Below are positions 8,880-41,462 of a DNA stretch of 64,000 nt, piece by piece. A model generated the notes under the pieces. It had not been told where the DNA came from, did no database searches, and saw only the letters and a list, made by a program, of their open reading frames with translations. Source of the stretch: Boswellia sacra (lineage: Eukaryota > Streptophyta > Magnoliopsida > Sapindales > Burseraceae); NCBI GenBank assembly GCA_013180625.2, contig SNVD02004916.1, positions 62,001 to 126,000 of the forward strand, in the 5' to 3' direction. How positions within the stretch are numbered: position 1 is the first letter of the stretch; the number at the start of each line of letters is the position of its first letter. Position numbers and translations under genes: made by a program.

Positions 8880-8898
8880 TAGCACTACGTGAAAAATG

Positions 8899-10427: not shown

Positions 10428-10429
10428 AA

Positions 10430-12197
10430 AAAATGTTAAAGACTCTTTTATTTGTCATAAAAAGTATACAAATGTGAAAATTATAATAAAAAACTAAGAA
10501 GATTTTGAAATTAATCATACTTGGACTTTGATAATTATAAATTTATTTAGTAATTAAATAAATTTATCCAACATAATTAAATTTATTTAATATTAGGTTA
10601 AACCATACTTAGACTTGGATAATTATAAGTTTATTTATTAATTAAATTTTCATCCATAATTAAATTTATATAATATTGGATTGGTATTAAATAATTTGAT
10701 GATAAATTAATAAATAATATAACAACCATATACAATAGAAATATAAAACATCATATGGTATTTAATTATTTTTTATTGAGTATTAAAATGTTAATAAAAT
10801 ATGTACAACAACTCAAGAATTATTTAACAAGTGTAAACAATAGTTAGACATTTATACATATGTCATAGTTGTTATATGAGCAATTACAAAAAAAAAGTTT
10901 CTTTAGTGATCAATAAATAATTAATTATTGATATTATAATCATATATGTAACAAAAAGATTCTATTCATTTTAGCTATAATTTATTTTAATTATCTATTT
11001 CTTTTAAAAACACTAAAAATATGTTTTACAAATTTAAAAAATTAATTTGTGATGGAGATAATTTAATTATTAACATATAAACGTATGTCATAATTGTCAT
11101 ATGTATTAAAGTGTTAACAAAATACACACAAGTCAACTATTATTAATAAATGTATAATACTTAAACATCTATACATATGACATAATTGTCATGTGCGAGT
11201 TATTGAAAAATAATTTTTAATACTTTAATAAATAAATAATCAAATATTCATATTATAATTATTATGTAACAAATGCATTTACTTTCAGTGAATATTTTTT
11301 ATTATTTATTCATTTTACAAATGCTAACAATTAATATTTAAAATATCTTGACAAATGCAAACCATAAGTTTGTAATAGTTGTAATTTAATAATTGAATAT
11401 CTATATATGTCATATTTGTTATTATAAGAAATTGAAAATAAGCTTTTCTAATTTGATTAGTAAATGATTACTTATTCATATTATAATTATATAAAAATGT
11501 AACAAAATTGCATTTATTTTCAAGTATAAAATGCCTTTAAATTAATTATCCATTTTTTTATAAAAATAACAATTATTAAAAATATTTTTTACAATTATAA
11601 AAAATATTTTTTTTCATATAAGTAATTTAATTATTAGACATATATACATATACATATGTTACAAGTATCATATGCATTACAAATTAAAAATTAGGTTTTG
11701 CCATTTACCAGTAAATGATTAATTATTCATATAGTAATCAATATGTAACAAATGTATTTATTTTTTGTTATAGAGTTCATTTTAATTATTTATCTCCCTT
11801 AAAATAAACTCTAACAATTGTTTAAAATATCTCAACAATTTACTCAAAGCTATACGATAAAAATTAAAAGTCTAAGAGAAATATATTGTCTAAATTAATA
11901 CACTTTATAACAAAAAAATAAAAAACATAATTATAGGCAACATTACATGATTATTAATTATTTATTTATTTATGTTTATTTGACATATAATTAAACGTTG
12001 AAAAATAAATTAGATTTTTAGAAGTTGGATTTTTTTTCCAATCTCATTTTCATCAATTAAAAATTAGTCATGGTAATAAGTTTATCATAATTGTAATTTA
12101 GCAGTTAGACATATATAAATCACACATAAATTAGATTATATATAAATAATTAGCAATAAATTTTATGCTTGATTATTAGATTATTAACGATTCATAT
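10430..12197. repeat. Degenerate tandem repeats in the CACTA centre
   Basis: A block starting ATACATATGTCAT and followed by TTGTCATATG-like, ATTCATATTATAAT, TATGTAACAAATGCATTTA and TTTTAATTATTTATC words recurs near 10855, 11171, 11403 and 11650, at spacings of about 230-320 bp. A shorter duplication (CATACTTGGACTTTGATAAT and a near copy) lies at 10516 and 10614. No coding frame of any length; A/T content is very high. Confidence 0.6.
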
Positions 12198-12206
12198 CAC
12201 ACACAC

Positions 12207-12247
<41 letters not shown>
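12198..12247. repeat. (CA)n microsatellite
   Basis: About 25 CA units with one G interruption near 12211, followed by a short TA run. It lies inside the CACTA element. Confidence 0.95.
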
Positions 12248-12255
<8 letters not shown>

Positions 12256-12559
12256 GAGAGTTTATTTTAATTATTTATCTCTTTTACAAACACTAAATTT
12301 AGAATATCTTAATAGTTTTTCACATTTAAAAGCATGAATGGAATCACAAATGGTCTTTTTTTTTAATAAAAATTTGTATGAATATCCAAATGACCTTACT
12401 ATATTTATAAATTGTCAATTTATATAAAATCAAATTAGATTTTTAATACTTTCTTTATTCTTTTTTTTGTCATTTTTTAAACAAAGACTTATATATTAGA
12501 CGAACCACGAACAAAGAGAAGAAAGCAAAAGAGGAAAGTTATTAAGTTTTAATTTTAAA

Positions 12560-13800
12560 AAAATAACTTTTTGCGAGGAATATTTTCTCGCAAAAGGCCA
12601 TATTTTGCGAGGAATACATATTTTCGTCACAAAATGTCCAGTATTGTCACGTGTTCATAATAAGTTAGACAGGCTTTTCGCGAGAAATTTTTTTTCGCAA
12701 AAGGTTAACTTTTTTGCGAGGAATTTATTGTCGCAAAAGATCACATTTCGCGACGAATCAAATTTTCGTCGCAAAATATCCAATATTGTCAAGTGCATAA
12801 TAAATTAGAATGGCTTTTTGCGAGGAATTTTTTGTCGCAAAATGTGAATTTTTGCGAGAAAATTTTCGTCGCAAAATATGACTTTTTGCGAAGAAAATTT
12901 TCTCGCAAAAAGTCACATTTTGCGTGGAATCTCGTTTTGTCGCAAAATGTCCAGTATTGCCACGTAAGCATGATAAATTAAAATGGCTTTTCGCGAGGAA
13001 GTTTTTGTCGCAAAAAATAGACCTTTTGCGACAAAAAATTCCTCGCGAAAGGTCACATTTTGCGAGGAATCACGTTTTTGTCGCAAAATGTCCAGTATTG
13101 ACACGTAAGCATGATAAATTAAAATGGCTTTTCGCGAGGAATTTTTTGTCGCAAAAAATATACCTTTTGCGACAAAAAATTCCTCGCGAAAGGTCACATT
13201 TTGCGAGGAATCATGTTTTTGTCGCAAAATATCCAGTATTGCCACGTGTGCATGGTAAATTAAAATAGCTTTTTGCGAGGAATTTTTTGTCGCAAAAAAT
13301 AGATTTTTTGTCGCAAAAAATGGATTTTTTCCGAGGAAATTTTCCTCGCAAAAGGTCACATTTTGCGAGGAATAATTTTTTCGTCGCAAAATGTCAAGTA
13401 TTGCCATATATGCATGGTGAATTAGAATGGCCTTTAGTGAGGAATTTTTTATCGCAAAATGTCTTTTTTTCGCGAGAAACATTATTTTGTCGCAAAAAAT
13501 GTTCATGTTGCTATAAAATTTTTGTCACAAAAAGACGTATGTGTGTTATACGTTTTGCGATGAAAAATTTGTCGCAATAGGTTTATTTCGTCGCAAAAAA
13601 AACTTCTCTAATTAGTCACTCGAGTTTTTAGCGAGGAAATGAATATTCGTCGCTAAAGGTTTTATTTTGCGACGAAAAATTCCTCGCAAAATATCTTTTT
13701 TTTGAAATGCTACCTTTTGTGACGAAATAATAATTTCGTCGCAAAAGGCCGCTTTTTGCGACGAATTTTATTTCGTCGCAAAAAATTTTGTCGCAAAAAA
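12560..13800. repeat. Right subterminal tandem array of the CACTA element
   Basis: About six units of 141-171 bp. Each carries a TCCAGTATTG-CACGT phrase (near 12648, 12790, 12961, 13102, 13243, 13404), then AAATTAAAATGGCTTTT-like spacer, then paired GCGAGGAA and TTGTCGCAAAA motifs. Units at 12961, 13102 and 13243 are nearly identical and exactly 141 bp apart, pointing to recent unequal exchange. Open frames here come from the repeats. Confidence 0.85.
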
Positions 13801-13820
13801 CTGTTTTTCTTGTAGTGTAG

Positions 13821-16040
13821 ACTAGTATCAAGTCTAGAACCACTAGATGAAAAATATGGTGTGGACTCAAAAAAGGTGACATCTGCACTTACAAAAGTTT
13901 TTTCCTAGCAAGGGTCAAGATATTTGTAACCTTTCTGAGTTCTAGAATACCCAAGAAAAATACATTTAGTGGACTGAGAAGACAATTTACCAAAAACTCG
14001 ATGAAGATGGACAAAACAAACACAACCAAAAATGCGAGGAGGAAGAGGAAAAGCAGGTTGATTAGGGAATAAGATGGAGTACGGAGACTGAAAATGAAGA
14101 ACAGAAGAAGGAACCCAATTAATGAGGTATCATGTGGTAAGTAATGCTTCCCCCCAATATTTTGATGGGACTTTCATATGAAATAATAGAGTTCGAGCCA
14201 CGTCTAACAAATGTCTATTTTTTCGCTCAGCAACCCCATTTTGCTGAGGGGTGTAAGCACATGATGTTTGATTTAGGATCCCATGAGTACTACAAAAAGT
14301 AGATAATGAGGAAGAGGTATATTCTAAAGTATTATCAGAACATAAAACTTTAATAGGATTACCAAACTGAGTCTTTATTTCATTGTAAAACATTTGAAAC
14401 ATATTAGGGACCTTAGATCGATCTTTTAACAGATACAACCAAGTAACTCTAGAATGATCATCCACAAAGGAAACAAAATATTTAAACCCATGACTGTTGG
14501 TTACCCGACAAGGATCCCTTACATCTGAATGAACCAAATCAAACGGTTGGTCACTAATGTTATTGACTCGACTACGCAACAAAAAACGAGAATGTTTACC
14601 TAACTGACAAGACTCACATTCAATTTGAGTTGGACTAGAAACACCCATATGTTGAAGCAATTTACTAGAAGGGTGACCTAAACGATAATGCCATTGTTTT
14701 GGAGAGACAGAAGAAGTGAGAGCTATATGAGTGGACGAAAGTGCTTCAAACAAGTGATAGACGTCATTCTTTTTATGTCGGCCACCAATTATTTTCCTCG
14801 TACCAAGATCCTGAAAAATACAATAGGATGGAAAAAAGGTGACTGAGCAATTTAAATTCTTAGTTAACTGACTAACAGATAAAATATTAACAGGAAATTT
14901 AGGAACATATAACACCGAAGACAAATGCAAACTACATGTACGAATGGTTCCAAACCCTTGTACTTGGGTTTTAGAAACATCAGCAAGAACAACTGATAAC
15001 TATTTATTAGAAGGAATAAAGGAACTAAAAAAGGAATCATTACCAGTCATGTAATAAGAAGCTCCAGAGTCTATAATCCAATGATGTGGGTCCGAAGAAG
15101 AAAATAAGGCAGTTGGCTTACCTGTTTAGACTAAGGAAGCTGAAGGCTCACTGGCTGGTTGACTTTCAGATTTAGGATCAGACTATGCAGAAGGTGGAGC
15201 ATGAGAGTTAGACGAATTACCAAAGGAAAGACGCTGCTTAGAGCTTTGATTTGCCCATTCAGGTTTTCCAAATTTATCCCAACACTTTTCTGAAGGATGA
15301 TTAAGCCGACCACAATGGGAACAAGGAACTCTTCCACCTCGTCCTCTAACACACCCTCTACTCCAACCAGAAAAACTTCCTCTGCCTCGATTACTAGACA
15401 CAACTAAGGCAGAAGCTTCTTGATTATGTTGAGAGGTGGGTAACCGTTGGAGTCAAGCATATGCTGTTTTAAGACTCGGGAGATCTTTCTGAGTCAAGAT
15501 GCTATTCTTAGCACTTTCATAGACAGGATTTAAGCTAGACAGGAACTTGACAACAAATAATTCTTCTCGTTGTTTCCGTAATGTCTCAACATCAGTAGTA
15601 ACAAGATGATAAGAGTTAAGCTCACCCATTAATGCTTCGATTACTCCTAAATATTCACTTAACGTTCTATCACCTTGCTGACAAGAAAATAAAGTAGAGT
15701 AAACATAAAAAATGTGAGGAACATTTTGAGATCCGTCAAACCTGTCTTGAAGTGAAGTCCACAACTCTTTGGTAGTATAAACCCACATCACAGTTGCTGT
15801 AAGTGATGGCTCCATACTGTTCCACAACCATGTAGTAATCAAATTGTCTTCCTGAATCCATTTAGCACACTCCTTTCAATCAGATGATGGAGAATCTTGT
15901 GTAAGATAATTATGTTTCCCTTGGCTAATCAAATATTTAGTTACTGATTTCGCCCATAACTTGTAATTTGAGTCATTCAATTTTACAGCTGTGATGGAAC
16001 CACCAACTCCAGGAGGATTAGAGGACAGTTGAGAAGCCAT
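13821..16040 (-). pseudogene. Copia gag, protease and integrase, stop-ridden
   Basis: The minus strand starts at ATG 16040 with gag (NDSNYKLWAKSVTKYL, then 15453-15842). The zinc knuckle CSHCGRLNHPSEKC follows near 15330-15290, then the protease motif WIIDSGASYYMTG near 15075-15040. Integrase comes next, with HYRLGHPS...CESCQLGKH zinc-binding residues, acidic residues in VHSDVRD and CSDNTLEYTS, and PQQNGVAERKNR (14130-14930). In-frame stops interrupt it at least six times (near 15880, 15450, 15184, 15127, 15000 and 14127). Several sit where Trp or Gln codons would be expected, consistent with C-to-T or G-to-A change. Products would package RNA, mature the polyprotein and integrate DNA; this copy cannot make them. 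Confidence 0.88.
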
Positions 16041-16578
16041 GGAAACCCCAAACACAATTTATCTTCCAAACAGAGCCACCACACGAAAAAAATTTCAAGA
16101 AAAAATCTGAAAATACCAAATAACACCACACGATTGGCTATGAATACTCAGACAAGAATGTATGATCATTAAAACTATAGTTGGGATATGAAACAACAAT
16201 TTTCGACTAGATTCAAGTGAGACAGAATTTTTCTGGCAATTGAAAATTTTTTTCGGCGATAGAAAATTTTTTCGACAGACTGTTTTTTAACACTGACAGT
16301 GAAATTTTGTTCACCAGCGATCGGCGACCTTAATGGAGTGGTTTTCGGCCATTTTCGAACACTGCAGCAGATTTTTCGGTGATCGAAAAGTTTTTTCGGT
16401 GGACTATTCTGGCGAAGATAGAGGGCTTTTGCTCACCAACGACTGGTGATCTCAGAGGAGTGGGCGGTGATAGTCACCGCTGACCGAAGGTGGGGGATCT
16501 CCCTTTAGATAGAAAACGGTTAGGATTTGTATTTTTGTTTTTAATAAAAGAAGAGAATGGAAGGAGGATCTTGATCCT

Positions 16579-16590
16579 GCTCTGATACCA
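16579..16590 (-). other. Primer-binding site, initiator tRNA-Met type
   Basis: TGGTATCAGAGC on the minus strand, with no gap to the 5' LTR. It matches the usual copia primer site for plant initiator methionine tRNA. Confidence 0.88.
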
Positions 16591-16754
16591 TGTTGAGAGA
16601 GAGGGAGAAACGAATTTAGGAGAAATATTAGATGTGTATTCCATTGTAAAGAGGTGTACATATATATAGTACAATAAGGAGAAATAAAATAAGAAAGAGA
16701 ATCAAATATGTATCTAATAGGAACACAATCCTAAATTTCTATAGAGATTTAACA
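16591..16754 (-). repeat. 5' LTR of the copia element
   Basis: Partner of 6859-7024, with TG and CA ends. It is followed at once by the second copy of the 22-bp flanking duplication. Confidence 0.92.
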
Positions 16755-18461: not shown

Positions 18462-20161
18462 TCGATGTGAATCTAAAACAAATTTTATGTGATTATTTTA
18501 CATAGGGTAAAATAATTAAAAATGATTATAAAATAATCTGATTTATTAAAGATTTTCAGAGAAAATTTTTTACGATTTTGAAATTTGATTACTTCCTACA
18601 GCGTTTTTGCTTTTTAAAATTTCAATACTACCCTCATTAAAAATAGGGAAAAAAAATTCCATCCTCTTAATAATGGAGAGTTCACAAAATTAATCCCTTA
18701 TTTGGACATTTACACATTACATTAATGAAAACACTTTAGTTTATCAGACACATAGTCAGTTTTTTAATAACACCAACTTCTAAAATGTTTTTTAATATTC
18801 TTTGCAATTTTTATTTTTAAAGTCATAATTACATTTTGGGTCAATATCAGTTACTACTGCTCTTGAGGTTTGGCTTATTTACACTAAGAAAGCAACTATA
18901 CCATTTTGTTACCACATCCACCATCCATCATCAGCTAGAAAATGAACGAGAATTTGCAAGCCAAAAATGAGAGATTAAAGGAAATGCTAAAAGAAAATAA
19001 TAGAGGATGTTAAAGGAAAATAAAAAGCTACGGAAGAAGATATTGAAGAGCTGAAGAACAATGTCGAAAAATAGTAAAATGGAGTTATCAAAAGAAAGTG
19101 ACGAGCTTTCTTCTTCTCAAAGGTTTCAGGGATTAATGGAAGTCTCCTAGTGTAGTCAGATCTAATAAAGACTCTGACAAGAGTAGTATGGACATTGTTG
19201 TTTTTCCATCGAGTTCTAATTATGTTAATCATCAACACAAGCTTGGAGAGTGAATAAGGTAAATTAAGTCAATTGATTAAACGAGCAATGGTAATGTGTG
19301 GATGAATAAGTAATATAGTTCGGTTTATATACATGAGTTTAGCCACAAAATTTTAACTCACTTTATTAATAAAATTTATGATCATTGATCTCCAAAAATC
19401 TAATGATTGAGATTAAAAATCAACAAATTATATATAATACTACCAACTTATCAATCATCTCAATCATTGGATTTGTGAATCAATAGCTATAAATGTATAT
19501 CTAGTTTTGTATTAAAAAATTTTTATCAAAAGATCTCTACCTTTATATATGTAATCCCTATTAATTCAAAATTTTAACTTAACTTTTTAACACAAAATAT
19601 TAAATGTTGATCCATTGTATTCCAATGGATATATATACAAATGTTTGTTAAATTAAATTTATAATAAAACAAATTTTTTATCTTAAAAAATGGGCTTTGT
19701 TCCTTTCAGTAATTTTAAGTTAAATATGTATGTAAATCTATTATTTAAGAAGAAAAATAGTAATGGAAAGGCTTAGTTTGATTAATGTGGGAATTAACTA
19801 ACATTCAGTTAATCAAGGACATAACATATGTTGAAAGGAAAACTGACTAGAAATTTGAATATATCTCATACATTGAAAGAATAAAAATTGTTCACCAAAT
19901 TCATTAGAAAAATGGTCTCACATAATATGTAATTGAAGCTAAAAACAAACCTTTTCCTTAGTTATCACCTCAACAGAATAATTAATTTACTTGCTAGATC
20001 TTGATGACAAACAACTTGATCATCCTTTCCCTTGACCCTTCTGATTTTGGCTGATGGTTGAATATCATGACTTTGAACTTATAATTAAAGAGGATATTTT
20101 GATAAATGAAGGTTAGCTTCTAAAGTTATAGTGTAATTGTGTGCACGGTTGGTGTTATATA
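18462..20161. other. Intergenic DNA with a possible decayed coiled-coil reading frame
   Basis: Mostly AT-rich. At 18943-19255 the plus strand reads MNENLQAKNERLKEMLKENN, then after a stop KENKKLRKKI, then MELSKESDELSSSQRFQG and, in another frame, SSMDIVVFPSSSNYVNHQHK. That looks like a charged helical protein broken by stops and shifts, perhaps a leucine-zipper type. I do not recognise the family. Nothing else gene-like was seen. Confidence 0.35.
19377..19491. repeat. Inverted repeat, MITE-like
   Basis: Arms of about 46 bp (19377-19423 and 19446-19491) pair around AATCTAATGATTGAGAT versus AATCCAATGATTGAGAT. Similarity fades outwards and I could not define ends or a target duplication. Confidence 0.5.
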
Positions 20162-20959
20162 TGTAAGTTTTGAAGCTACAGACTCAATTACGTCAAATAA
20201 AACCAAGGCAGTTATGAAAAATGTAATAGACAAAATTAAAAGTTGCACACAAGAGTTTATATGGTTCAACTTGATCAAGCCTACATCCACTGGCAGCCAA
20301 GCTAAAATTCACTATAATGTTTACGTTTACAAAGACTACAACTTTACAGTTGATGAACCTTACGTTCACTCACACTCATCTACCCTACATAAAGAATATT
20401 CTAATCTCCTAGAACTCCATCTATAGCAAACCAACTTCTTCTCTCACTACACTTCCCACAATTTGAGTCCCTCTCAAATTGCTCAAATTGTATTACAATT
20501 CCCCAATGAGATAACTACACTCTCTAGTTAATCACAATCATGATAAGTGAACAATACTTATAACTATCAAGTTTAATGAAAACAGCTTGCACACAAAAAC
20601 ATAACTAGACATAAACTGAAAATCTTCTAGTTATACACATCTAGCGAACTTTCCTTTTTGAATAAGGATTCTTCAAGATCTTACAATATATTCATTATCT
20701 TGTAAATCTTGTAAATATAGGAAAGCTAAATCACGTGAATATATTGAATAAATAATTATAATATACATCTTTTCCTAAAGTGAGATAAATAAAAAACTTT
20801 CCTAATCCAAATCCATAACTTTGAAAATATTATCCAGTTAAGTTACACATAATTGAATCAGTTAAAATAGGAAAGTAATAAATCACTAGATTTGTTTTCT
20901 CCAAAATGCCAACACATCAATGCCACATAGATTGAAGTCCACATGGCATTGCCCTAACA
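20162..20959 (-). repeat. 3' LTR of the Sirevirus-like element
   Basis: Begins TGTAAGTTTTGAAGC and ends GCCCTAACA on the plus strand. It aligns along its full length with 29381-30040 plus 41463-41601. Its uninterrupted copy shows the CACTA empty site (ATTATCCAGTTAAG near 20829-20842). Confidence 0.88.
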
Positions 20960-21225
20960 ATCTCCCATTTTTGCATTTTGTTAGAAAAACAACAAATTAA
21001 TGTAACATGTAAACAATTAGTTAAAATAAACATAACTGAATCAGTAGACAAAAGTAGAGCTGCACTTAGACAGTTATAAACAAACATATCCGGCAAAAAA
21101 GCATTAGCAAAGCTCATGCAAACCAAGCTCAGAGCAAAACAAACCATCAAAAACTAAATTTTGAAACACAAATTAAAAAAAAGTAAAACTAACAATACTC
21201 CCCCTAAATATGTTCTTCTCCCCCT
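20960..21225 (-). other. Cluster of polypurine tracts
   Basis: On the minus strand, ATGGGAGAT abuts the LTR (20960-20968). Two TAGGGGGAG tracts lie at 21198-21206 and 21218-21225. Repeated polypurine tracts upstream of the 3' LTR are a described Sirevirus trait, which supports the lineage call. Confidence 0.6.
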
Positions 21226-24189: not shown

Positions 24190-25760
24190 GACATGCACTA
24201 AGAGCCTTTCTCAGTTTTTTTATATCTTGATGAGTCTAGTGCCTTGCTAAACAAATTAGCTGGTTGGTTTTCTGTTGAAACATGCTTAATATGGCCTGTC
24301 CTAGATTCAACTAACTCTCCAATGAAATGATACTAAATGTCTATGTGCTTAGTTCTTGCGTGTTGGACAAAGTTTTTGGAGATGTTTATTGCACTTGTGT
24401 TATCACAAAAGATTGTCATGGATTCTTGAGTGATACCATAGTCTTCCAACATTTGTTTCATCCACAGCAATTGAGTATAATAGCTACCAACAGCTATGTA
24501 CTCAGCCTTCATAGTAGAAAATGAAATTGAGTTTTGTTTCTTGTTGTGCCAAGACACCAGGTTGTTCCTAAGATAGAAGCACCCCCTTGTGGTACTCTTT
24601 CTATCATCTACATTGCCAGCCCAATCAATATCACTGTAACCTACAAGGAATGAATTTGTGTCTTTAAAAAACCAAATTCCATAGTCTATAGTCCCTTGAA
24701 TATACCTGATTATCCTCTTGACTGTTGCCAGATGTTGTTCCTTTGGACATGAGTGGAACAGTGCACATAAACCTACACTGAAACCTATGTTCGATCTACT
24801 TGCTGTAAGATACAAGCTTCCAATCATACTTCTGTATAAGTTTTGATCAACATCATTCTATGCACTATCCCTTGAAAATTTGAGATTGGTAGCAATAAGT
24901 GGCCTCTAAGTTCTTTGCGTACCTAGCTTGAGAGATAAAAATACCATCATCAAGTTATTTGACTTAAAGCCCAAGAAAAAATGTTAGTTCACCTACCATA
25001 CTCATCTCAAATTCTTCCTGCATAAGCTTAACAAACTCATTAGTCTTATCATCAAGTGCAAAACCAAACATTATATAATCAACATAGATTTGAGCCACAA
25101 TAATATACTGAGATGCATGTTTTATGAACAAGGTTTTGTCATTGCTGCCTCTAGTATATCGTTTACCAAGTAGAAAGGTTGTACGCCTTTCATACCAAGC
25201 TCTTAGAGCTTCTTTCAGAACATACAGAGCCTTTTTCAGTTTGTAAACATAACTGCGATGCTTAAGGTCAACAAAGCCTTTTGGCTGCTCAACAAAAGCT
25301 TCCTTATTTAAAATCCCATTTAAGATGGCTGTCTCAACATCCATTTGAAATAGTTTTAAATTTAACAAACAAGCAATAGCAAGCAACAACCTAATAGATT
25401 CTAACCAAGCTACATGTGCAAAGGTCTCATCAAAATAAATTCCGTCAATTTGTGTATACCCTTGAGCAACTAGTCTAGCCTTATTCCTAATCACTTATGC
25501 ATTTGCATCACTCTTGTTCTTGAAAATCCATTTAGCTCCAATGACGTTAGTGTTTTTAGGTCTAGAAACTAAAGTCCAAACTTTATTTCTTGTAAATTGA
25601 TTCAACTCATCTTGCATAACTTGGATCCAATATTCTTCCTTAAGAGCATCATTAACATTCTTAGGTTCAACAAGTGGCGCATAGCATGAGAAACTCACCT
25701 GATTCCTCGTTTTGACTCCTCTTCCTCGATCGCCAATAATAAAGAATGCAGGATGTGCCT
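24190..25760 (-). pseudogene. Sirevirus-like reverse transcriptase and RNase H
   Basis: Minus strand: NKVWTLVSRPKNTNVIGAKW (25495-25791) leads into reverse transcriptase RNKARLVAQGYTQ, FQMDVETAILNGIL, YVYKLKKALYVLKEALRAWY (24964-25494). RNase H follows (GYSDIDWAGNVDDRKST, KAEYIAVGSYYTQLLWM, FCDNTSAINISKN, HARTKHIDI; 24333-24827), then a short tail to about 24190. The catalytic YVDD box reads YVDY (near 25075), losing the second metal-binding Asp. Stops lie near 25497, 24962, 24858 and 24330. It is inactive as it stands. Confidence 0.88.
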
Positions 25761-25868
25761 TTGTAAAAGATCTGCTACAAACCGAATACATTTATTTTTC
25801 AAATGATTCATATCGTCAAGTGCACCCATTCCAAATTTCAGTCCAATCAAATTATCCGCAGCTGTTGC
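25761..25868 (-). pseudogene. rpoB: Plastid rpoB fragment captured in pol (NUPT)
   Basis: Minus-strand reading gives [19 protein letters not shown] followed by [17 protein letters not shown]. This is the conserved stretch of the plastid-encoded RNA polymerase beta subunit, well before its catalytic region. It is about 36 codons, flanked on one side by an rpoC1 piece and on the other by retroelement pol ([20 protein letters not shown]). Some differences from the plastid protein as I remember it (Arg to Cys, Ser to Phe) fit C-to-T change. The fragment is in a different frame from both neighbours. Identification is by recall of the family, with high confidence because the run of matching residues is long. 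Confidence 0.88.
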
Positions 25869-25870
25869 AG

Positions 25871-25995
25871 TTTTTCCCATACAATCGGACCTTTTTCCTG
25901 AATTTTACTCTTAGCAACTCCTATGTTTGAAGCAAGATGTTGGCTAATTAGACCACAAATTACAAATGTCTGTAAAAGCTCTCTTGCGATTTCGC
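25871..25995 (-). pseudogene. rpoC1: Plastid rpoC1 fragment captured in pol (NUPT)
   Basis: Minus-strand reading gives [20 protein letters not shown] then [20 protein letters not shown]. This is the plastid RNA polymerase beta-prime subunit segment just ahead of the NADFDGD metal site (which is not included). It follows pol in frame (NPPAWIQK precedes it). It ends at a junction with rpoB within a shared CTGCAA-like word at about 25866-25871. In plastid genomes rpoB lies upstream of rpoC1 in one operon. Here the order is reversed and the intervening kilobases are absent, so two separate pieces were joined. No promoter or function is implied. Confidence 0.88.
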
Positions 25996-27480
25996 AAAGT
26001 TTTTGAATCCAAGCTGGGGGATTCTTAGTCCTATCATCATCTCTAATTTCATCTCTGCTTAAATCAACGCTATCAGACATCTCAATTTCATCTATCTTAA
26101 CTTTTGTAATTTTATTATGTGTGACTGATTCTAAGTTTTCTATAGATTTTGCTCTAGTTGTAGTAGTAGATTTAGTAAGGCTTTATTTGATTTCCTCTTA
26201 TGAAAAATCTACATAATCATCACAATCATCAAATACAACATTAGCAGATTCCATTATGTTTATAATTCTCTTATTATAGATCTTATATGCTTTGTTGTTC
26301 AAGGAATAACCAATAAAAACACATCATCACTTTTGGCGTCAAAATTTGCCAAGTTATTCTCTATCATTGAGAAAATAACACCTGTAACCAAATACATTGA
26401 AATATCTGAGGCTAGGCTTTCTTCCTTTCAGCAACTCATAAGGTGTTTTGATAGGTTCCTGACCTTAAAAAAACTTTGTTGATGATGTAACATGTTGTAT
26501 TGATTGTGACTGCCCAAAGCCTTTTTGTTAACTTCTTGTTGTTCAACATTACTTGAGCCATCTCTTGCAATGGTCTATTTTTCCTCTCTACTACTCTATT
26601 CTGCTCAAGAGCTTTTAGAGCAGAAAATTCATGAGTGATGTCATGAAGTTTGTGAAATTTAGTATAGCTTTCATTCTCAAATTCCTTCCCATGGTCACTT
26701 CTAATTCTGGCAATTCTTCCAAAATTTCTGTTTTGTTCAGTCTCCAACCTGACACATAGATTTCTAAACACATCAAATGTATCAGATTTCTCTTGAACAA
26801 AATATAACCAAGTATACCTTGAATAGTTATCAACACATACAAAAACATACATTTTCCCTGTAATGCTTTGAATTTGCATTAGACGCATATGAGATCCATA
26901 TTTAATAGTTCAAGAATGTTAGAGGTACTAAGAAAAGAATTGGAACCATGTGAACTTTCAATCTGGTTACCTTTTTGGCATGGGCCACACATAATGTCAG
27001 ACTCATGGTCAAACTTAAGCACTCCTCTAACTGCACCAGTCTTAGTCAATTTAACTGAGTCCTTATAATTCGTGTGACCAAGTTTTTGATGCCATAATTC
27101 AATCTTAGAATTATTAGCAAACAATGCACTCAGTTTAGTCAATAAGTAACAATTGTCATTAGACCTACTGCCTTCGAGAATGCAATTCTTGTTGAAATCA
27201 AGAACCATGCATTTATTCTTAGTAAACTCAATAGTATATTCATCATCACAAATCCGACTAATATTGAGCAAATTGGCTTTACGACCTTCAACAAAAAGTA
27301 CATCAATAAATTTAGGTAAACTAGCAACACATAATGTACCTTTACCCAGCATTTTATTTTTAGCATTATCTCCAAAAGTGATTAAACTTTGACTACATGT
27401 TTTGAAATTTTTCAGCATTTCTCTTTTACCTATCATATATCTTGAACAACCACTATCAAGTGCCAAGAGTCATTAGTTGA
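25996..27480 (-). pseudogene. Sirevirus-like protease-integrase region
   Basis: Minus strand from about 27480: MALDSGCSRYMIGKREML (aspartic protease-like DSGCS), FGDNAKNKMLGKGTL, LLNISRICDDEYTIEFTKN, then the integrase zinc site LWHQKLGHTNY...CGPCQKGNQ (26879-27466). The core follows: VDNYSRYTWLYFVQEKSDTF, RIRSDHGKEFEN, and SALKALEQNRVVERKNRPLQEM (26436-26888). A poorly conserved linker rich in Asp and Ser (26000-26330) leads to NPPAWIQK at the plastid insert. Frameshifts lie near 26880 and 26460 and stops near 26020-26280. Enzyme role: cut the polyprotein and insert cDNA into the genome. Confidence 0.85.
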
Positions 27481-29366: not shown

Positions 29367-29378
29367 GCTCTGATACCA
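29367..29378 (-). other. Primer-binding site of the Sirevirus-like element
   Basis: TGGTATCAGAGC on the minus strand, separated from the LTR (29381) by AT. Confidence 0.85.
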
Positions 29379-29380
29379 AT

Positions 29381-30040
29381 TGCAGGTTTTGAAGTTGCAG
29401 ACTCACTTATGTCAAACAAAACACAGTACTTACAAAAAATGTAACAGACGTAATTAAAAATTACACAAAGGAGTCTTATGTGGTTCAGCTTAATCAAACC
29501 TACATCCACGAGCAGCCAAACTGCAATTTACTATAATGTTCACGTTTACAAAAACTAGGACTTTATAGTTGACGAACCCCACATTCACTAACACTCACCT
29601 ATCCTATATAAACAATATTCTAATCTCCTAGAACTTCATCCATAGCAAACCAATTTCTTCTCTCATTGCACTTTCCATAATTTAAGTCCCTCTCAAATTG
29701 TATTACAATTCCCCAATGAGATAGCAACACTGTCTAGTTAATCACAATCATGATAAGTGAACAATAATTATCACTCAAGCTTAATGAAAATAGCTTGCAC
29801 ACAAAAACATAACTGGACATAAACTAAAAATCTTTTAGTTATACACATCCAACAAACTTTCCTTTCTGAACAAGAATTCTTCAAGATCTTCCAATATATT
29901 CATTATCTTGTAAATCTTGCAAATATGGGAAAGCTAAATCATGTTAGGATATTGAATAAATAATCAGAATATATATCTTTTCCTAAACTGAGATAAATAA
30001 AAACTTTCCTAATCCAAATCCATAACCTGGAAATATTATC
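29381..30040 (-). repeat. 5' LTR of the Sirevirus-like element, first segment
   Basis: Aligns with 20162-20830 and stops at ATTAT, where the CACTA element starts. Confidence 0.87.
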
Positions 30041-30145
30041 CTACAAGAAGGGGCGGCTTATACTACGCCCATCTTCGGCGGTTTTTAAAAACCGTCGTAG
30101 GTAGATTTACGCGAAAATATGTGCGGCGGTTTTGAGAACCGCCAT

Positions 30146-33100
30146 TTAAATGGCCTCAAAATCCCCAAATCAATTTTGCCCTCATGCTAGTATCGTCTCG
30201 TCTCTCTCAAGTCTTCTCTCCATTGAAACGCGATTCTGCCCTCACCCCCTCCTTAAACTCGATTGAAACTGAAGTCATCACCCCATTGAAATGCCAGTTC
30301 CCTCTCGTCTCTCTCAACTGTTCTCTCAATTGAAACTCGATTGAGTGCCGGTTTCGCATCTCGTCTCTCTCATGATTATCAATCCCCATTTCGCATGCTG
30401 TAGAGGGCACATATAGAAAAATTAAGTCCAGGCAATTGCATGCTTTAGAGAGCTTTGTCTCTGAACTTGTTTGCTGGAGTACACAGCGATCGGAGTAGGC
30501 GCAGACGACAGACAACCCTCGCTCTCAAATGGCTTTCGCTGTTACAGGAAATTCCAGGATTGGTGATTTTGTTACAGGTTGGTGCATTAGCTTTCAAAAG
30601 TTTCAGCTTTTAGAAGGTATTGATACCATTTTGGAGTTTTTGAAATTATGCTTATGGCCTTCTATGTGTTGTTCTATCACATATCTCCAGGATTTTTTGT
30701 AGCTACTCTCTTTGTTCAATTTTATCTAATATTAATGAACCTATTTTTTGTTATATGAGTTGAGTGTCTGATAAAGGCAGATGAGGTTGGTTGAAATTTC
30801 CAAGCATGTACTTGGCACAATAGCATTGTTTCTGTTCTCTGTTGGCCTAAAGGGTTGTATTATTTTTCTAGGATGAAATTTGAGTTTCATGAGGAATCAC
30901 TGTTATTGAATGTAAAGCCAGTTCAGCCATCTCTATGTACTGATGTATATAATTATATGAAATCATTAACCTCTGCCTTGCTAGAGCTAAAAGAATTATG
31001 AATAAACTAATGCTTTAAACTACTAGTACCTTTTCAAGGACTCATGAAATCATAATTCATCCAGGCCCTTAACCTGACCAAAGTCATCTCATGAGGTATA
31101 AATATAGGTTTGTCATTTGTTAGTCTCTAAACTCTGTATTTTTGGTGGAAACTATTAATTAGTTTGTTTTTAATTGTAGATAATATTGTTGAGTTGGGTT
31201 GTCTATTGGCATGCTAAGTGGGGATCAATATATCAAACTGGGTTGATAAATTGATACTTATTGATAATTGTAGGAACTGAATAAGTTTGATTATATCTCC
31301 ATGAGTGATGTCCAAGAGAGAATAAATAGTACAAATATGTAGCCTTGCAAATCCCAGTTGTGAGTGACTTCTTAATTTATGAATAATTAAATAATTTTTT
31401 AGTATAAATTTATGAATGACTTTTCTGATGAAAGAGAAAAGAAAATATTTATTTAATATTTAGTATATTGGACTAAAGGCATTATTTCAAGTTATCATGG
31501 TTATTCAGTTTAATATAATACACGTTTATTGATTGACTTCTTGTGCTTGGTTCAATTCCATTTGGGTTTTGTTCAATCATAAGTTTAATGTTTCACAGGA
31601 AATGAAATTTGTTTGGTATTTTCGTTATCTCAAATTAATACGGGTTTTTGATAATTTTATGTTTGTTTCTTCAACATCATTTTGTAAATATATCTGTGCA
31701 ATTTGCAAGATTTGAAAATACATAATCAAAGTGCATTTTGTCACTGGTACACTAGAACCAGCTTTCTCTGTCTGCTCAATTAATTGTTCAAGTTTTACTT
31801 TTTCAGGTATCTTTTTGAAACTTTGAGGCTAAGCTACTGTGTCAAAGCTTGCGTTTAAAGAAGGTGGTCTTGATTTGTAATTGATAGCCGGAAGTGAGGT
31901 ATAGTTAAATTTTTATTGATAAAAGTCTTACATATCTTTAATATTTGAAAGTAAGTTGAAAATCTAAATAAGTTTCTGTTTTATTTTTCTAATGTTTTAC
32001 TTTATTTTCATAATGAGTTTTGCTTTGATGATGCTTTCATTGGCACTTGACCTTGTACAAACATGTATTAAGAAGGGGCCTAAAAGAAGAACAATAAATA
32101 AAGGGGAACCAAACAAAGAAAAATCGTAAAATCAAGGGCTGACTGCGAAAATATCATCTTTTATGCATGCAATTTGAAAATATATCTTTATTGGGCTTGA
32201 GGATGCCCATAAGGTAGCTCTGCCCCTTGTAAAGCATCAAACTTATAGTATAGTAGAAAACTACTTTAAGTACAACAGCATGGTGCTGTTGGCATCTTGA
32301 TTCTGATGACTATTATGCCTGATGCTGCTTTCTATTAGTATATCAATGATATTGTCCTGAATTTGGATAGCTGATTTTGAGCTTTTGTTGAATTTTAGTG
32401 AGATTCAGTGAAAAGGGTTTGCAGAATTGAGAACTTTGGATCTAATTTAGCTGTATATCATGCAATTTGGTTTAGTTGGATATAGCAAACCTGAAGGTTC
32501 TAATGACAATGTGTAAGTGCAAAATGATCATTGATGGAGAAGATTTCCAGTTTATTGGATGAAAATTATAATTGTATTGTTGATAGTTTGACTGGTTTAT
32601 GGCTATAATGTGTTGATTATTGAACTATATTTGCTTGGTGATGGAATATAGAGGTACTACCTAATCTTGTTGATGATACTTCTGTAATCATATCTTTCTA
32701 GTTCATAGAAGGATGGGAATGAGTTAATAATATGCTTTGTATTGCTTCTAAATTCTGCTCTACTTTATTTTCATGGTCTTTATAAGTCCATCTGGATGTG
32801 GCTGTTGAGCTCTTAGTGTTCTTGCTTGATTGTGTTAGCAGTTCTTTCAAGGTGCTTGTCATTGCAAACTTTTTCAATGATTGATTGTTAATTTTTATTG
32901 TTGCTGTTCGTCAATGACTCAGCTAGGTTTTTTTACCATTGTTCATTTGTTGTATGTATTCTCATAGCATACCTTTATCCTGACATTATTTTAATTTATT
33001 GTGTTATTTCTGTTAATTTTCTGTTGATTGCCTTCTAAAGTTGAATCAGATCATTAAGGGTTTAAATTCATTGTCTATAAAAATTAGGAACAGTAATAGT

Positions 33101-33358
33101 AGGTGCCAAGAATTAAATAGAAGTCATGAATTAAAGACTTTTTATATATTATTACTATCATCCTATATATATCTCTGCCTTCGAAGAACAATTTTTTATA
33201 AGCAAATTAGGAAGAGAAGAGAGAAAGTGTGGACAGAATAATTGCCCTAAGTACAAGGGTACATCCTTACCCTTTTGAACTGTGGGGTGCCATGTAAATG
33301 AGGCATGCACTAGTGAAGAAGATGCAGTCTCGTGTGCACCCATAAAAATCAAAACATA

Positions 33359-33397
<39 letters not shown>

Positions 33398-34250
33398 GGG
33401 TCTGTTGAGTGTTTGAAGTTTGTTGGAATTTTGGTGAGGACTAAAATTAAGGGCTTGTTGGTGATAGTGGTGGGACAAACTTTTGTGATTGTACATAATT
33501 AATATAAATTGCTATACTATGGTTGGTAGCTAGATTTGGTGCTTGCTGCTTACTGTCCATATGCGGTTTGGTTCATTAATTAAACATTTATAAGTATTAC
33601 ATTTTTTATTAGTTGATGAATGCATGCTGCCATTATTTACTGATATATAGAATGGAACATTCTCCAATTAGGATGACAAAGCCTCAAGTACATTCACATA
33701 CTCTTAACAACACAAAATAGGGATTATGGTGACAAAATCAAAGAGAAATGTTGTTGAGAGGGAAATTAAATGAACACTGTGGAGAAAGAGTTTTGACTTT
33801 AACAAGGAATTTTTTAGTATTCTTATTATTCTTCTTATTTGTTAATTTATTTATTTTAATATTTGGTTTAGAAATACTTATGTACTGCATTACAATAAAC
33901 AAAATTGAGTTTTCTCTGTTAGGTAGTTGCCTTTGGAAACCTTCAATTTAATGCTCTTCTGAAAGCCAACTTTGAAGTTGTTCCTAGGAGTATACCCATA
34001 GTTGCACTTTCATTTGTTTACCAAGTAACATCGGTTCATCACCAATTAACCTGCATTGGTTCCATATTGAGATACTTGTAACGTATTATATCCTCTTGGT
34101 TCAGAATGTCGTACCTGTTGTTTGTATAAATCTTGAAGGAAACCTGTCAAAAGTAAAGTGATGAATCCTTTCATCCTAAACTGTTTAAATTACATAAATA
34201 AATATAGAAAATATAAAAGAAATGGGATTAGCCAATGTATAAATGAGATA
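30146..34250 (+). other. Long non-coding leader of the CACTA element
   Basis: About 4 kb of T-rich plus-strand DNA between the left subterminal motifs and the TnpD gene. It contains TATA-like words and many candidate splice signals, for example TTACAG/GTTGG near 30575, and could hold untranslated exons and introns of the transposase transcript. I saw no recognisable domain. The longest frames are under 105 codons. Confidence 0.5.
33362..33396 (+). repeat. (CT)n microsatellite
   Basis: About 17 CT units in the leader of the CACTA element. Confidence 0.95.
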
Positions 34251-34680
34251 CAGCCCATACACATTCTGATCTAATGCCAGCCCATTAAACAAAAGCCCAC
34301 AACCATAATAAAAATTGTCAGCCCATTAAACAAAAAAATTAATAAAACCAGCCCACTAAACTAGAAACTATGTCAGCCCATTAAACAAAAGCCCACAAAC
34401 ATAATAAAAACTGCGGTTAGACATTAATTTAGGAGGCTGGTGTCATTAATTTTTTTGATATTGAATTTTATCAATAAAATTCAATAAAATATAAAATAAA
34501 ATACACCACCCCACTAACCGCTTTCTGCGTAAAAAAATAGACAACTAATCCAACAAAATACCTATAGTAGTCCACTAAACCATAAAGGAAAGTGCACTTC
34601 CCCACTAAAGCAACCAACAGAAACATCATAGCCCACTTTTCTAACCCTCATTCCTAATTAAGTTTAATGGGTAGCCCATA
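34251..34680 (+). promoter_or_regulatory. Cluster of nine AGCCCA (site II-like) motifs upstream of TnpD
   Basis: AGCCCA occurs nine times on the plus strand in about 430 bp, three of them as AGCCCATTAAAC. A phrase AGCCCATTAAACAAAAGCCC is duplicated about 94 bp apart (near 34279 and 34374). AGCCCA is the complement of TGGGCT, the plant site II element bound by TCP factors and common in promoters of genes active in dividing cells. It sits about 270-700 bp before the TnpD start. Promoter function is inferred. Confidence 0.5.
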
Positions 34681-34948
34681 CATACCTGGATACAGTAGTC
34701 CACTGAACCGTACCCACTATTCCCAAATTAAAAAAAATGAAAAGACACTATCCAACTACCCAAAAAATTCTAAGTTAATAGTTAATATTTTTAGTAACTA
34801 TTGGATTTTATGGTTTGTATCTCTTCGTTAATTATTATCATTATTTTGTTCTATCTATGTTTGTTTTTCATGCTTAGAAATTGTTCAATAGTTATTATTT
34901 TACCTATCTTGATATGGATTACATGTACTTTCTTTAAGGAACATACCC

Positions 34949-37900
34949 ATGGATAAGAGTTGGATTGACTTACAAAATCGCTGTTGTCAAGCATATTTCA
35001 ATGGGGTTGAGGGATTTTTAAATTTTGCTTTTGGCAATCTAGTTAATGATACTAGAATTTTATGACCACGTAAGAAATGTCACAATCGATATCGTTTGGA
35101 TAGATACACAGCAAGAGAGCATTTAATCTGTAATGGGTTTCTTAGAACATATAAAAGGTGGACCTTACATGGAGAACAATATACACCACTTGAGTCTGAC
35201 CAACCCAACCAACCCAACCAACATTTGGAGGTTGGTTGTGATTCCACTGTGGGTGATGATATGGTCAAAATGATACATGAAGCCATTGGGCTTCCGAATA
35301 ATGATTTTGGTGAAGGTAGTAGTCATCCATTGGATCAAGAAACTGAGAGATATTTAAAACTTCTTCAGGAGGCAGAGTGTCCATTGTATCCAGGTTGTGA
35401 GATTTTTACTTCACTTTCCTTTACTGTTCAACTTTTGCAATTGAAAGTGTTGCACGGATGGACAGACACTTCAATGACAAAGTTACTAAAACTGTTGAAG
35501 AAAGCCTTTCCAGAAAATTCCAAAGTTCCTTCTTCATATTATGAGGCACAAACGATAACTACTGACTTGGGGTTTACATACCAGTCTTGGGATGCTTGTC
35601 CCAACAATTGTATGTTGTTTAGAGGTGAGTATGGAAATTTGGATAGGTGTTGCATATGCCATAAGTCTAGATATAAGAACTTTGATGAGGTGAATGATGC
35701 ATCAAATCCCAATGGTAAAATTGCTGCAAAACAAGTAAGATACTTTCCATTAATTCCTAGGTTGCAAAGATTATTCATGTCTTCAAAAACTACTTCTTTA
35801 ATGCGATGGCACGCAGAAGATCGTATTAAAGATGATGTGCTAAGACATCCCGCTGATAGCCCTTGTTGGAGAACTTTTGACGAAAAGCATCCTGCTTTTG
35901 CTGCTGATTCTCGTAATGTCAGACTTGGATTGGCAGCAGATGGATTTAATCCATTCAGGACTATGTCCATAGCACATAGTACATGGCCTAATATGTTGAT
36001 GCCATACAACTTACCTCCTTGGTTGTGTACGAAGGAAACTTTTTTCATTTTATCTATGCTAATTGATGGTCCAAAAGGTCCTGGAAATAAAATTGATGTC
36101 TATATGCAGCCGCTGATTGATGAATTAAAACAATTATGGAGTGAAGGCGTGCTAACCTATGATGCATCGTGTCGACAAATGTTCAAACTACATGCAGCAT
36201 TATTATGGACTATCAATGATTTTTCGGCATATGCTAATCTGTTGGGTTGGAGCACTAAAGGTGAGAAAGCATGTCCTTGCTGTATGGAAAATACGGTATC
36301 TAAATGGTTGTCTCATAGTAGAAAATTTTGTTACATGGGTCATCGGTGATACTTGCCCAGTACTCATAGATTTCGAAGGGATAGGATATCGTTTAATGGG
36401 AAAGCGGAATTGGGACCACCTCCAGCTTGCTTGTCTGGTGTTGATGTAAAAAGACAATTAGAAAATGTTCTAACCGAGTATAAGATGGAAGACCTTCAGA
36501 GAAGAGTGAATAATTCTGAAATGACAAATCAAGCAAACAGTTGGAAGAAAAAAAGCATTTTCTTTGAACTACCATATTGGGAGCATAACTTGATTAGACA
36601 TAATCTTGACGTCATGCACATTGAGAAGAATGTATGTGATAATATACTCTGGACATTGTTAGGGGATTCGAGGAAATCAAAAGATTCATTGAAGGCTCGA
36701 CTTGATTTGGGGGATATGAAAATAAGGAAAGCTCTGCATCCTCAACAACGAGGTGCTAACAAATTGTATTTACCTCCTGCATGCTTCTCAATGAACAAAG
36801 ATAAAAAGATGTCTTTCTTAGTGTGTTGAAGAAAGTGAAGTTACCGGATGGTTATGCATCAAATATTCGACGGCGTGTTCACATGAAAGAGTGGAGCATT
36901 TCAGGTTTGAAAAGTCATGATAATCATATTTTGATACAACAATTGCTTCCTCTTGCTGCTCGAAGGGCTTTGCCAAAAAATGTTGTTGTTACTTTGATTG
37001 AGTTAGCAAACTTTTTCTAGCAACTGTGCTCCAAAGTGAATACTGCAGATGACTTAAACTCTATTCAACATTGAGTTGTGCTTACACTGTGCCATCTTGA
37101 GAAAATTTTCCCACCTTCATTCCTTGACATAATGGAGCATTTGCCCATTCATCTTGCTCAAGAGGCATCTTTAGCGGGACCGGTACAATTTCGATGGATG
37201 TATCCTATTGAAAGGTATTATTAAGTCACATGTTACGTAATGTTCTTTTAACTTCCATTCTTATCAATGAATATCTACTAAGAAAGATTTCAGATTCTAT
37301 AGGTATTTACTAACTCTGAAGAGATATGTGCGCAACCGTGCACACCCGGAGGCTTCTATTGCTAAGGGATATCTACTGGAGAAGTGCATAAATTTTTGCT
37401 CAAGATATTTTGATGAAGTCGAAACTAAAATTAATCAAGGACCTCGAAATAAGGATGGTACCTCTAGTGAAGGAGAGCATTTTGAACTTGATCATGTCTC
37501 TTGGGCTCAAGCACATAGATATGTGCTAGTTAATACACCTTATATTGATCCCTTTCGAGAGTAAGATATGCATCATCATTTCTTTTTCTAAGCAACTTAC
37601 TGAGTTTGACTTGCATAGTTAGTAATGTCTTTTGATGTCTTCTTACGCAGGAAGCATCTAAATGAACTTCAACGACAAAGGCCTTGTTTTACTATTCATG
37701 AAATCCATAAAGAGCATAACAAAACCTTCCATGAATGGTTTCGAAGTCATGTAAGTGTTAGTTATATATTGAAGTGCTATCATTATACTGACTTTCGATT
37801 CTAACTATGTGTTTCTATAGGTTTACTCCTTACAAGAGACCTCAAATGTATCATTGTCTAAGGAAATCATCAATTTAGCTAATGGGCCTAAATCGGGCGC

Positions 37901-38522
37901 ACATCGTTATAAATCTTATAGTGTTAACAGCTTCAAATTTCGAACCAAAGACACCGATAAGCACAAAACAACTCAGTAATGTGGTGTTATTTTGAAGGCT
38001 GATACCATGAGCTATGCTAGGGCACAAGATAAAAATCCTCTTTCAGGCAATGTTACATTTCTTGGAGTGTTAACAGATATAATTCAAATTCGTTATGTCA
38101 ATGACATGACTTTTATGTTGTTCAAGTGTGATTGGGTTGATAATCGGATTGGAAAGAAGTGTGATGAATTTGACTTCAGCTTGGTTAATTTTAATCATCT
38201 ATTATATAAAGATAATCATGTGGATGATGAACCTTTCATTTTAGCAGAACAAGCTGAGCAAGTTTGTTATATTCAAGATCCAATGGATGAAGATTGGCAT
38301 GTTGTGCTTAAAATGACAATGAGAGATACATATGATTTCACTTCCAAAAGTTCATCTACCGCAAACATGGTGCCACAAGTTGAGCTATATACACAACAAG
38401 AATTTGATGAAAGAGGTTATTTTCGTGAGGAAGATGTTCAATGGGTTAGGCAAGGAGTTGAAGGCACAACAATTATCATTAATAGAGAAGACAATGATGA
38501 TGGGATGGATGATATTGATTGA
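34949..38522 (+). pseudogene. CACTA TnpD-type transposase, multiple stops
   Basis: Starts at ATG 34949 (MDKSWIDLQNRCCQAYFNGV), an N-terminal transposase-associated domain. The transposase core (Transposase_21 class) follows, with TSLMRWHAEDR, LAADGFNPFRTMSIAHSTWP, PGNKIDVYMQPLIDELKQLW and HNLDVMHIEKNVCDNIL. Then come a DUF4218-like part (LEKIFPPSFLDIMEHLP, WMYPIER) and a DUF4216-like C-terminus (TFLGVLTDIIQIRYVND, FKCDWVD). Introns fit at 37215-37312, 37561-37650 and 37751-37820. In-frame stops: TGA 35063, TGA 36347, TAG 37018, TGA 37072, TAA 37977. A 1-bp loss in an A-run near 36806 shifts frame. The first stop falls in the Cys cluster of the N-terminal domain. The enzyme would cut and join element ends; this copy cannot. 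Confidence 0.9.
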
Positions 38523-38772
38523 CTATTCTTTTGGGTATGCCCTTTTTTTTTATTCTGTCATTTTGTATCTTATTTTGGTTTTGCGGGGCATTTGTTATAT
38601 ATCCCCCTCGAATGGGTGTAACAATAATTTTTTATGAATGACGTATATAGTTTGTTCTTTTTTGTTTTTCTTAAATGGATTGTGATTTTTTTTATATGCA
38701 TATGTTTCATATTATGATGTGTACGAAATGATGTTAACATGGTTATCTATTTTTGTTTTTTTGTAGGTAACT

Positions 38773-40659
38773 ATGCCACCAAAGAGACTTCGAGACATTT
38801 CAATGGAGAGTATAATACAACGGGAAGCAGAATCTCAACGACAGTCGACATCTTCCCAAACTCAGACAAATAACGGAGAGCAAGGTATGTACATAAATAA
38901 GATGGCTTTACTAATTAATATTTAAAGTTGTTTTCTCATTTGTTTATTTGTTTTTTAGATGATGGTGGTACGTCAAAGGTTGTAAAAGGTCGTGGATCAG
39001 CTCGCACTATTCGTGAGTGGGGAATAGGGCAAAGGTTGCATGTAGAGTTTAACTCTCAGTGGCAACCAATAAATGCAAACAAAGATAAATTTACCTCCCA
39101 ACTTGGAATCATAGCAAAGAATGGCAACATGGCTCCGCTGAATTATCCGCGATGGCAAAACATGCCACAACATCTGTTAGATGACATTTGGAAAGAAGTA
39201 AAGGTGAGTATTTTATATGAAATTCTTAGGCTATAACATATTTTTTTGTATCTATATTAATCTATTATGATTTGTGGTTGTAGGATAATACAAATGTTCC
39301 TGATGAGTATAGAGTTCATTGTCTAAAAGCAGTTGGGAATCTTTGGAGGGATTGGAAAGCTCGTGTCAAGAGAGAGTATTACAAGAAATTTGATACAGAT
39401 GAGGATCGGTTAGCTTTCACTCCTCCTAGAGTTAACCCGGACCAGTGGCCTATTCTTGTAGCTTATTGGGGGACGGAAGAAGCCAAAGTATATGTCTAAC
39501 TCAACACATGCTATATATACCAAAATAGTTGTTTTTAAGTAGTTATAAATTCTATAATACGTAAACTTTTGAAATTGTTTGTATTATAGGGAGTTGCAGA
39601 GAAGAATAAGGTAAACCGTGCACAACAGGTTGCACTTCATCGGACAGGTCGTACGTCGTTTGCCCAGAAACGAGAAGAGGTAAGTTTTGCATAACTATGT
39701 ATATGTCTTTATCTATATGCTATTTATTTATTAGTTATGAAGATACTACTTCAATGGAGATATGAAGGAAGTGGTTGTCTTTCTATTATGTTACCATTGT
39801 ATTGCTAAGAAATGGGATGCGTTTATTTTTTATGATGTTTTTGGTAAGTAACTTCACTTTTTAAGTACTTGTACATCATGATAAAGCTTTATATTAGTTG
39901 TTTTCTTTTCTTTTTTTGGTTAGATGATAAGAAAGGGCGAACAAATTGATCGTATTAGTGTCTTCATCAAAACCAGAATAAAAAGTAATGGGGAAATAGG
40001 TGATGATGAAAGTGCAGAAATAATTGTAAGTTCTCCAATTTTTTGAACCTATATATTCATCTAGTATGTATGAATTTATTTTGCTTATTGTTTTATCTTC
40101 TTTAACTTGTTATTTGTTTTGATAATGTTGTAGAGTCAATTTAATGAAGGTTTGTCTCAATTTACACAAGAGCAACAAACTCAACAAGTGAGAGAAGAAG
40201 TTTTTGGCAACGTAATGGGACCTGATCATCGTGGCTATGCTCGGACATACGGTTATGGTCCATCTCCAATTGACATTCACGGATGCAGCAGCTCATCTGA
40301 TAATCAATGGAGGGAACAATTTAGTGCCTTACAACAAGCACACAACAATTTGAATGCAGCTCACAACAACTTGAAGGAAGAATATAACAACTTGAAGATG
40401 ACGCATGCTGAAGTCCTTTCCTTTCTACAGGAGACGTTTCCAGAATTTGCACAGCAGCATGCAAATAGATCGGTATTCACATATTTCCATAAAAGTTAAA
40501 AGCTTCAGATGATTCATAGTTTAACTTGCGTTTTGTATTCTTTTTTCTGAATAGGTTCCAGATGCTTCAAGTGGACACCGAAGTCGTTTTCAACTTGATA
40601 GTCATGGAACAGATAATATCACACGTGACACATCAGATGAGGAACATGAGTACGTATAA
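38773..40659 (+). CDS. CACTA accessory protein, TnpA/Transposase_24 type, seven exons
   Basis: Exons 38773-38884, 38959-39203, 39284-39487, 39590-39679, 39924-40025, 40134-40472 and 40555-40659 all have GT/AG borders and join to 1,197 bp: 398 residues with no stop or shift. Start MPPKRLRDISMESIIQREAE. The central part (RGSARTIREWGIGQRLHVEF, KAVGNLWRDWKARVKREYY, NPDQWPILVAYWG, RAQQVALHRTGRTSFAQKRE) matches the Transposase_24 family of plant En/Spm elements. The C-terminal third holds AHNNLNAAHNNLKEEYNNLK, a likely coiled coil for self-association. Such proteins bind subterminal repeats and help the transposase. An acceptor-like TTGTAG just before the ATG suggests an upstream untranslated exon. 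It is intact beside a ruined TnpD gene. Confidence 0.87.
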
Positions 40660-41026
40660 ACAATCTTCTTTGTTCCAAATTAAACAATCTTATTAAATGA
40701 ATATTATCTAAGTTACAAATTTATTCTTGCAGGTAAGTTCAAGTTTTGTGGTTTGCACTTATGTGGACGTTAATGAACTATTAGAGATGTTTAACTATTT
40801 GCTTATCAGATGTTAAACTATGTGAATTATGATACAGATACATTTGATTTGTTTTTTGCAATATGTTTAAAATCACTTAAATGAGATGCTTTCATATTTC
40901 TTTTGTTCCTATATTAATATTGAATGCATAAAATTATTGAAATGTTATGTAATAATTTTTTTTAGGCATGTGAATTCAATTTGTAAACAGCACAGCAGGT
41001 ACAAATTAATTACAAAAAAATTAAAA

Positions 41027-41452: not shown

Positions 41453-41462
41453 TGTAGTGTGG

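Follow-up and report, generated by a model that had tools for sequence, protein, structure and literature searches.

In this Boswellia sacra window (the window being the whole stretch of 64,000 nucleotides analysed), a Ty1-copia, Sirevirus-like retrotransposon has its pol region interrupted on the minus strand by a complex plastid-derived insert of approximately 241 bp at 25760-26000, the ends of which, placed from the flanking reading frames and from PDB sequence matches, are ambiguous by a few bases. Read along the minus strand, a piece of rpoC1 is followed directly by a piece of rpoB, after which pol starts again. Very probably, the insert is a complex NUPT, that is, two non-adjacent plastid fragments that became linked and were inserted by end joining into a double-strand break in pol. 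Taken as a whole, the observation is genuine but unremarkable: a complex NUPT within a retroelement that is dead.

The plastid-type origin of both pieces is apparent at the protein level. The rpoC1 fragment (25865-25993, read on the minus strand from 25993 to 25865) matches codons 407-449 in the numbering of PDB chain 8w9z_C, with 36 of 43 residues identical and a best E of 3.7e-15; bit scores were 51-55 for three plastid-type chains versus at most 24 for the other chains matched. This fragment may extend to 25999. The rpoB fragment (25761-25862, read on the same strand from 25862 to 25761) matches codons 289-322 in the numbering of 8w9z_B, with 31 of 34 residues identical and a best E of 3.5e-13; here, bit scores were 43-48 for plastid-type chains versus at most 20 for other chains. 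The top-scoring PDB entries, such as the 8w9z chains, are presumably plant chloroplast polymerases. An earlier note on this DNA had described rpoC1 and then rpoB pieces inside a Sirevirus-like pol at 25761..25995. That composition is confirmed by these identities and by the pol frames on both sides, and the plastid origin of the two pieces and their transfer to the nucleus are supported by the protein-level matches; the insert is thus real, but its limits are corrected to those given above. Moreover, significant matches to plastid rpoB and rpoC1, on whose presence the note had made its reading depend, were obtained for both genes (the best E values just cited). That these residues instead belong to a conserved segment of Sirevirus pol, or resemble plastid sequence by chance, has next to no probability: E values to plastid-type subunits are approximately 4e-13 and 4e-15, the pieces occupy two frames with the second outside that of pol, and nothing was found in favor of such a reading, which the plastid-type matches in effect refute. 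Ty1-copia, CACTA transposase, and leucine-rich-repeat (LRR)-kinase sequences surround both plastid pieces, and this nuclear context places the insert in the nuclear genome.

At the codon resolution of a protein-level comparison, the rpoC1 match passes into the rpoB match within approximately 1-2 bases. In the plastid operon, rpoB precedes rpoC1, and the earlier description of the order as opposite to that of the operon holds. Calculated from residue numbers and chain length together with the rpoB-rpoC1 gene order, rpoB 289-322 and rpoC1 407-449 are separated in the plastid genome by at least approximately 3.4 kb of coding sequence, and the rpoC1 intron would widen this distance. Residue changes number 7 of 43 in the rpoC1 piece and 3 of 34 in the rpoB piece (Fisher p 0.50), a similarity that is consistent with a single event in which both pieces would have entered together, though they may also have entered stepwise, by two insertions. 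Plastid insertions are common in plant mitochondria, and mitochondrial recombination would explain joined, reordered pieces, which lends some appeal to a detour (an MTPT) in which plastid DNA was rearranged in the mitochondrial genome and then reached the nucleus within a single contiguous stretch of mitochondrial DNA. Such a detour is nonetheless very unlikely, since at either end only a few bases separate the plastid-type matches from pol, which leaves no room for flanking mitochondrial sequence.

Searches for related sequence covered several collections. Within the window, the insert shares no 14-mer with the rest of the sequence. Plastid patterns, exact or degenerate, gave 0 matches in viral contigs and matched one Clostridia contig (L001) among genome contigs, and all blastn matches to plasmids (14 records) and phages (3 records) had E values close to or above 1. 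Patterns for the junctions also gave 0 matches in viral contigs, a result that says little, since plant nuclear genomes would not be expected in such a collection.

The reading frames on either side define how the insert disrupts pol. On the 5' side, an open pol frame between integrase and reverse transcriptase (26001-26182, minus strand) ends in NPPAWIQK, the last base of which is read at 26000. On the 3' side, pol (25498-25761, minus strand, placed by frame reading) picks up again at 25761 in the same frame as the reverse transcriptase ORF, from which it is separated by one stop at 25495-25497. The rpoC1 and rpoB pieces lie in two different frames, and rpoB is not in that of pol; the pol frame remains open through the rpoC1 part and then meets a stop at 25847-25849. 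Further, the length of approximately 241 bp is not a multiple of three and shifts the pol frame. The frame shift together with the stop at 25847-25849 leaves the insert no coding role. A captured exon was also considered and is ruled out by the length, by the different frame of rpoB, and by the stop after rpoC1. Most likely, the insert has no function and decays along with the element. The original pol sequence at the insertion site is one that we infer purely from the reading frames. The pol pieces of a second copia element in the window (7197-8393 and 14112-15074) were compared as an empty-site control; between integrase and reverse transcriptase, this element holds repeat-like sequence with no recognisable counterpart of the motif. 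A text search of the literature for the letters of the pol motif gave no match.

The host element has the domain order of Ty1-copia, with integrase before reverse transcriptase, as identified from Pfam matches to RVT_2, integrase core, gag_pre-integrase, and Pol_BBD. On the minus strand, Pol_BBD, gag_pre-integrase, and the integrase core span 26436-27469, a region broken near 26890 by a frameshift into two overlapping ORFs in different frames. The reverse transcriptase (RVT_2, Ty1-copia; PF07727, E 1.7e-40) lies at 24964-25494, and it is followed at 24333-24857 by a region that is probably RNase H-like, a name given by position; this region is 43% identical to the window's second copia element and is without a Pfam match. 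The 3' LTR (20162-20959, minus strand) was delimited from the LTR pair aligned by blastn and from its ends, and the inner part of the 5' LTR (29381-30041, minus strand) from the same pair and from the junction motif described for sireviruses (PMC2829016). Sireviruses are marked by multiple identical AGGGGGAG octamers upstream of the 3' LTR that are rare elsewhere and by CA/ATTGG followed by the PBS TATCAGAGC at the 5' LTR, with a terminal octamer and AT/TG at the 3' LTR, CGG-CCG boxes in the LTR, and an inverted repeat at the PPT/LTR junction as further marks (PMC2829016). Here, CA/ATTGG and TATCAGAGC are present as an exact match on the minus strand inside 29367-29382, at the 5' LTR junction. 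Two exact copies of AGGGGGAG occur in the linker near the 3' LTR (21198 and 21218) with no third in the element, and the window has one further copy at 8163, inside the second copia element. The 3' LTR junction reads AT/TG beside a PPT-like tract at 20962-20969, where the terminal octamer is mutated; this copy is old. Given the junction features and the AGGGGGAG copies, and with the terminal octamer mutated, the label Sirevirus-like is reasonable. With frameshifts and stops outside the insert as well, the element is dead. A search of viral contigs for relatives of the reverse transcriptase gave 6 pattern matches, none of which was confirmed, and scans of the window with Rfam and for tRNA found nothing.

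The 5' LTR is split by a CACTA (En/Spm-type) transposon at 30042-41462 on the plus strand, which was recognized by its termini and by Transposase_21 (E 7.6e-83) and DUF4216 matches; it carries a tnp2 transposase, and its left terminus is incomplete. Beyond it, the outer part of the 5' LTR (41463-41601, minus strand) was located from the blastn LTR pair. The flanks outside the LTR ends read ATATG at 41602-41606 and ATATA at 20157-20161, probably a target-site duplication with one change. Within the LTRs, 20834-20935 differs from 41463-41564 at 2 of 102 sites versus 79 of 657 in the inner part (Fisher p 0.0008, for a stretch picked post hoc; the entire outer part, with 10 of 126 sites different, gives p 0.22). 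Gene conversion, uneven change, or chance are possible sources of this low difference.

Other repeats were observed in the window. The second copia element, a more distant Ty1-copia relative at 6859-16747 (minus strand), has LTR-like repeats that are 98% identical over 157 nt and carries at 16579 the same PBS letters as TATCAGAGC. Between 46908 and 59826, stretches 79-88% identical and 8.4-9.6 kb apart contain leucine-rich-repeat and kinase domains; they probably represent a receptor-kinase gene present twice, the ORFs being shorter in the second copy. Local tandem repeats occur at 12548-13479 and 60941-61366, with copy spacing mostly of 141-142 bp.

The age of the insert bears on how it arrived. 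The inner LTR pair differs at 79 of 657 sites (12%; 61 transitions and 18 transversions), which gives a K2P distance of 0.134, or 0.067 per lineage; the outer LTR part differs at 10 of 126 sites. The insert carries 10 residue changes in 77 codons, requiring at least 11 base changes. When neutral decay was simulated, these changes correspond to approximately 0.06 per site, with values of approximately 0.03-0.10 acceptable and those below 0.03 or above approximately 0.10-0.12 fitting poorly, although the figure is uncertain in that residue changes native to this species' own plastid genes could inflate it. The clock therefore does not separate an arrival before, during, or after transposition of the element. 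That the two divergences are close is what would be predicted by RNA-mediated capture at the last transposition, in which reverse transcriptase in a virus-like particle switched from element RNA to a plastid rpoB transcript, to an rpoC1 transcript, and back, so that the chimera arose with, or before, the transposition of this copy. Such template switching would also account for the sense orientation shared by pol and the two plastid pieces. However, the sense match is expected one time in four by chance and the agreement in date has a wide error (approximately 0.03-0.10); further, the process requires three switches and a return to pol without visible loss, and plastid transcripts sit inside the organelle. 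We regard this route as highly improbable. The same low probability is assigned to the wider claim that a Sirevirus-like element captured two plastid transcripts and carried the chimera here, and perhaps elsewhere, such that a retrotransposon spread plastid gene sequence. It should be noted that the shared sense strand of the pol, rpoC1, and rpoB parts also counts against capture of the fragments as filler, which would yield that arrangement approximately one time in four.

CpG content provides a second line of evidence. The observed/expected ratio is 0.83 in the insert versus 0.21 in the element body, approximately four times as high, and the 241-bp insert contains 6 CpGs versus 1.4 expected from the element body. 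Among 770 overlapping windows of the internal region, none reaches the CpG ratio of the insert and 2 reach its CpG count. The insert thus keeps a plastid-like composition, as expected of foreign, originally unmethylated DNA. The earlier suggestion of methylation decay is upheld in part, in that, taking the shortest codon path, CpG transitions account for 3 of the 10 residue changes (Arg to Cys twice and Arg to Gln once), but at least 5 of the 10 require a transversion along such paths, and the 6 CpGs survive against the 1.4 expected. Methylation decay is accordingly partial: it acted on the insert without being its dominant signature. Of the CpGs in the LTRs, 1 is shared by the two copies and 8 occur in just one of them; at 6 of these 8, the other copy reads TG or CA. 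Retention is at most approximately 6 of 9 inferred CpGs in the insert versus approximately 0.25 per lineage in the LTRs (7 sites). On these few usable sites, CpG survival gives a weak hint that the insert arrived after the element had integrated, which also stands against capture by template switching.

The preferred and simplest account, that of a complex NUPT, would begin with two short, non-adjacent fragments of plastid DNA, one from rpoC1 and one from rpoB, that became joined to each other. A double-strand break would have arisen in pol of the Ty1-copia, Sirevirus-like element in the plant nuclear genome, and the joined fragments would have been ligated into it as filler, with end joining as the putative repair pathway. 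Complex NUPTs, in which multiple organelle stretches from different places and in different orientations are presumably joined before or during integration, with 1-7 bp of microhomology or bluntly, are described in two papers (PMC6215612, PMC7037861), and the fit of the insert to this published class argues for the double-strand-break filler account. The view in the earlier note that such a composite within a retroelement coding region is unusual is not supported, as multi-fragment NUPTs are an established class (PMC6215612, PMC7037861). Work in tobacco treats double-strand breaks as integration sites, and impaired repair lets breaks persist and results in more transfer (PMC12181080). Among titles and the beginnings of abstracts, no exact match was found for plastid DNA in copia elements, NUPTs nested in LTR elements, or template-switched plant retrogenes, though such cases may still be published. 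Read as a complex NUPT, the insert adds one more small case in which plastid DNA served as filler when a chromosome was repaired; the same junctions in other copies of the family, if present, would mean a retrotransposon that distributes plastid sequence and would matter more.

Compared with known systems, the insert most resembles the complex NUPTs, in which several plastome fragments from different places are joined at one nuclear site, by end joining in the published class (PMC6215612; review PMC7037861). In contrast to those described there, the pieces here are short (approximately 130 and 100 bp) and the site is inside the pol of a retroelement. A second comparison is with the NUPTs of a sex-specific region, in a species that is presumably papaya. 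These NUPTs have multiplied, with Ty3-type elements nearby, and likewise bring together plastid DNA and an LTR element (PMC7037861), whereas in the present case the element itself contains the plastid DNA, which is known from a single copy. Finally, the host element has in common with the Sirevirus genus, as described (PMC2829016), the Ty1-copia domains, two exact AGGGGGAG octamers, CA/ATTGG-TATCAGAGC, and AT/TG, and it differs from that description in its mutated terminal PPT octamer.
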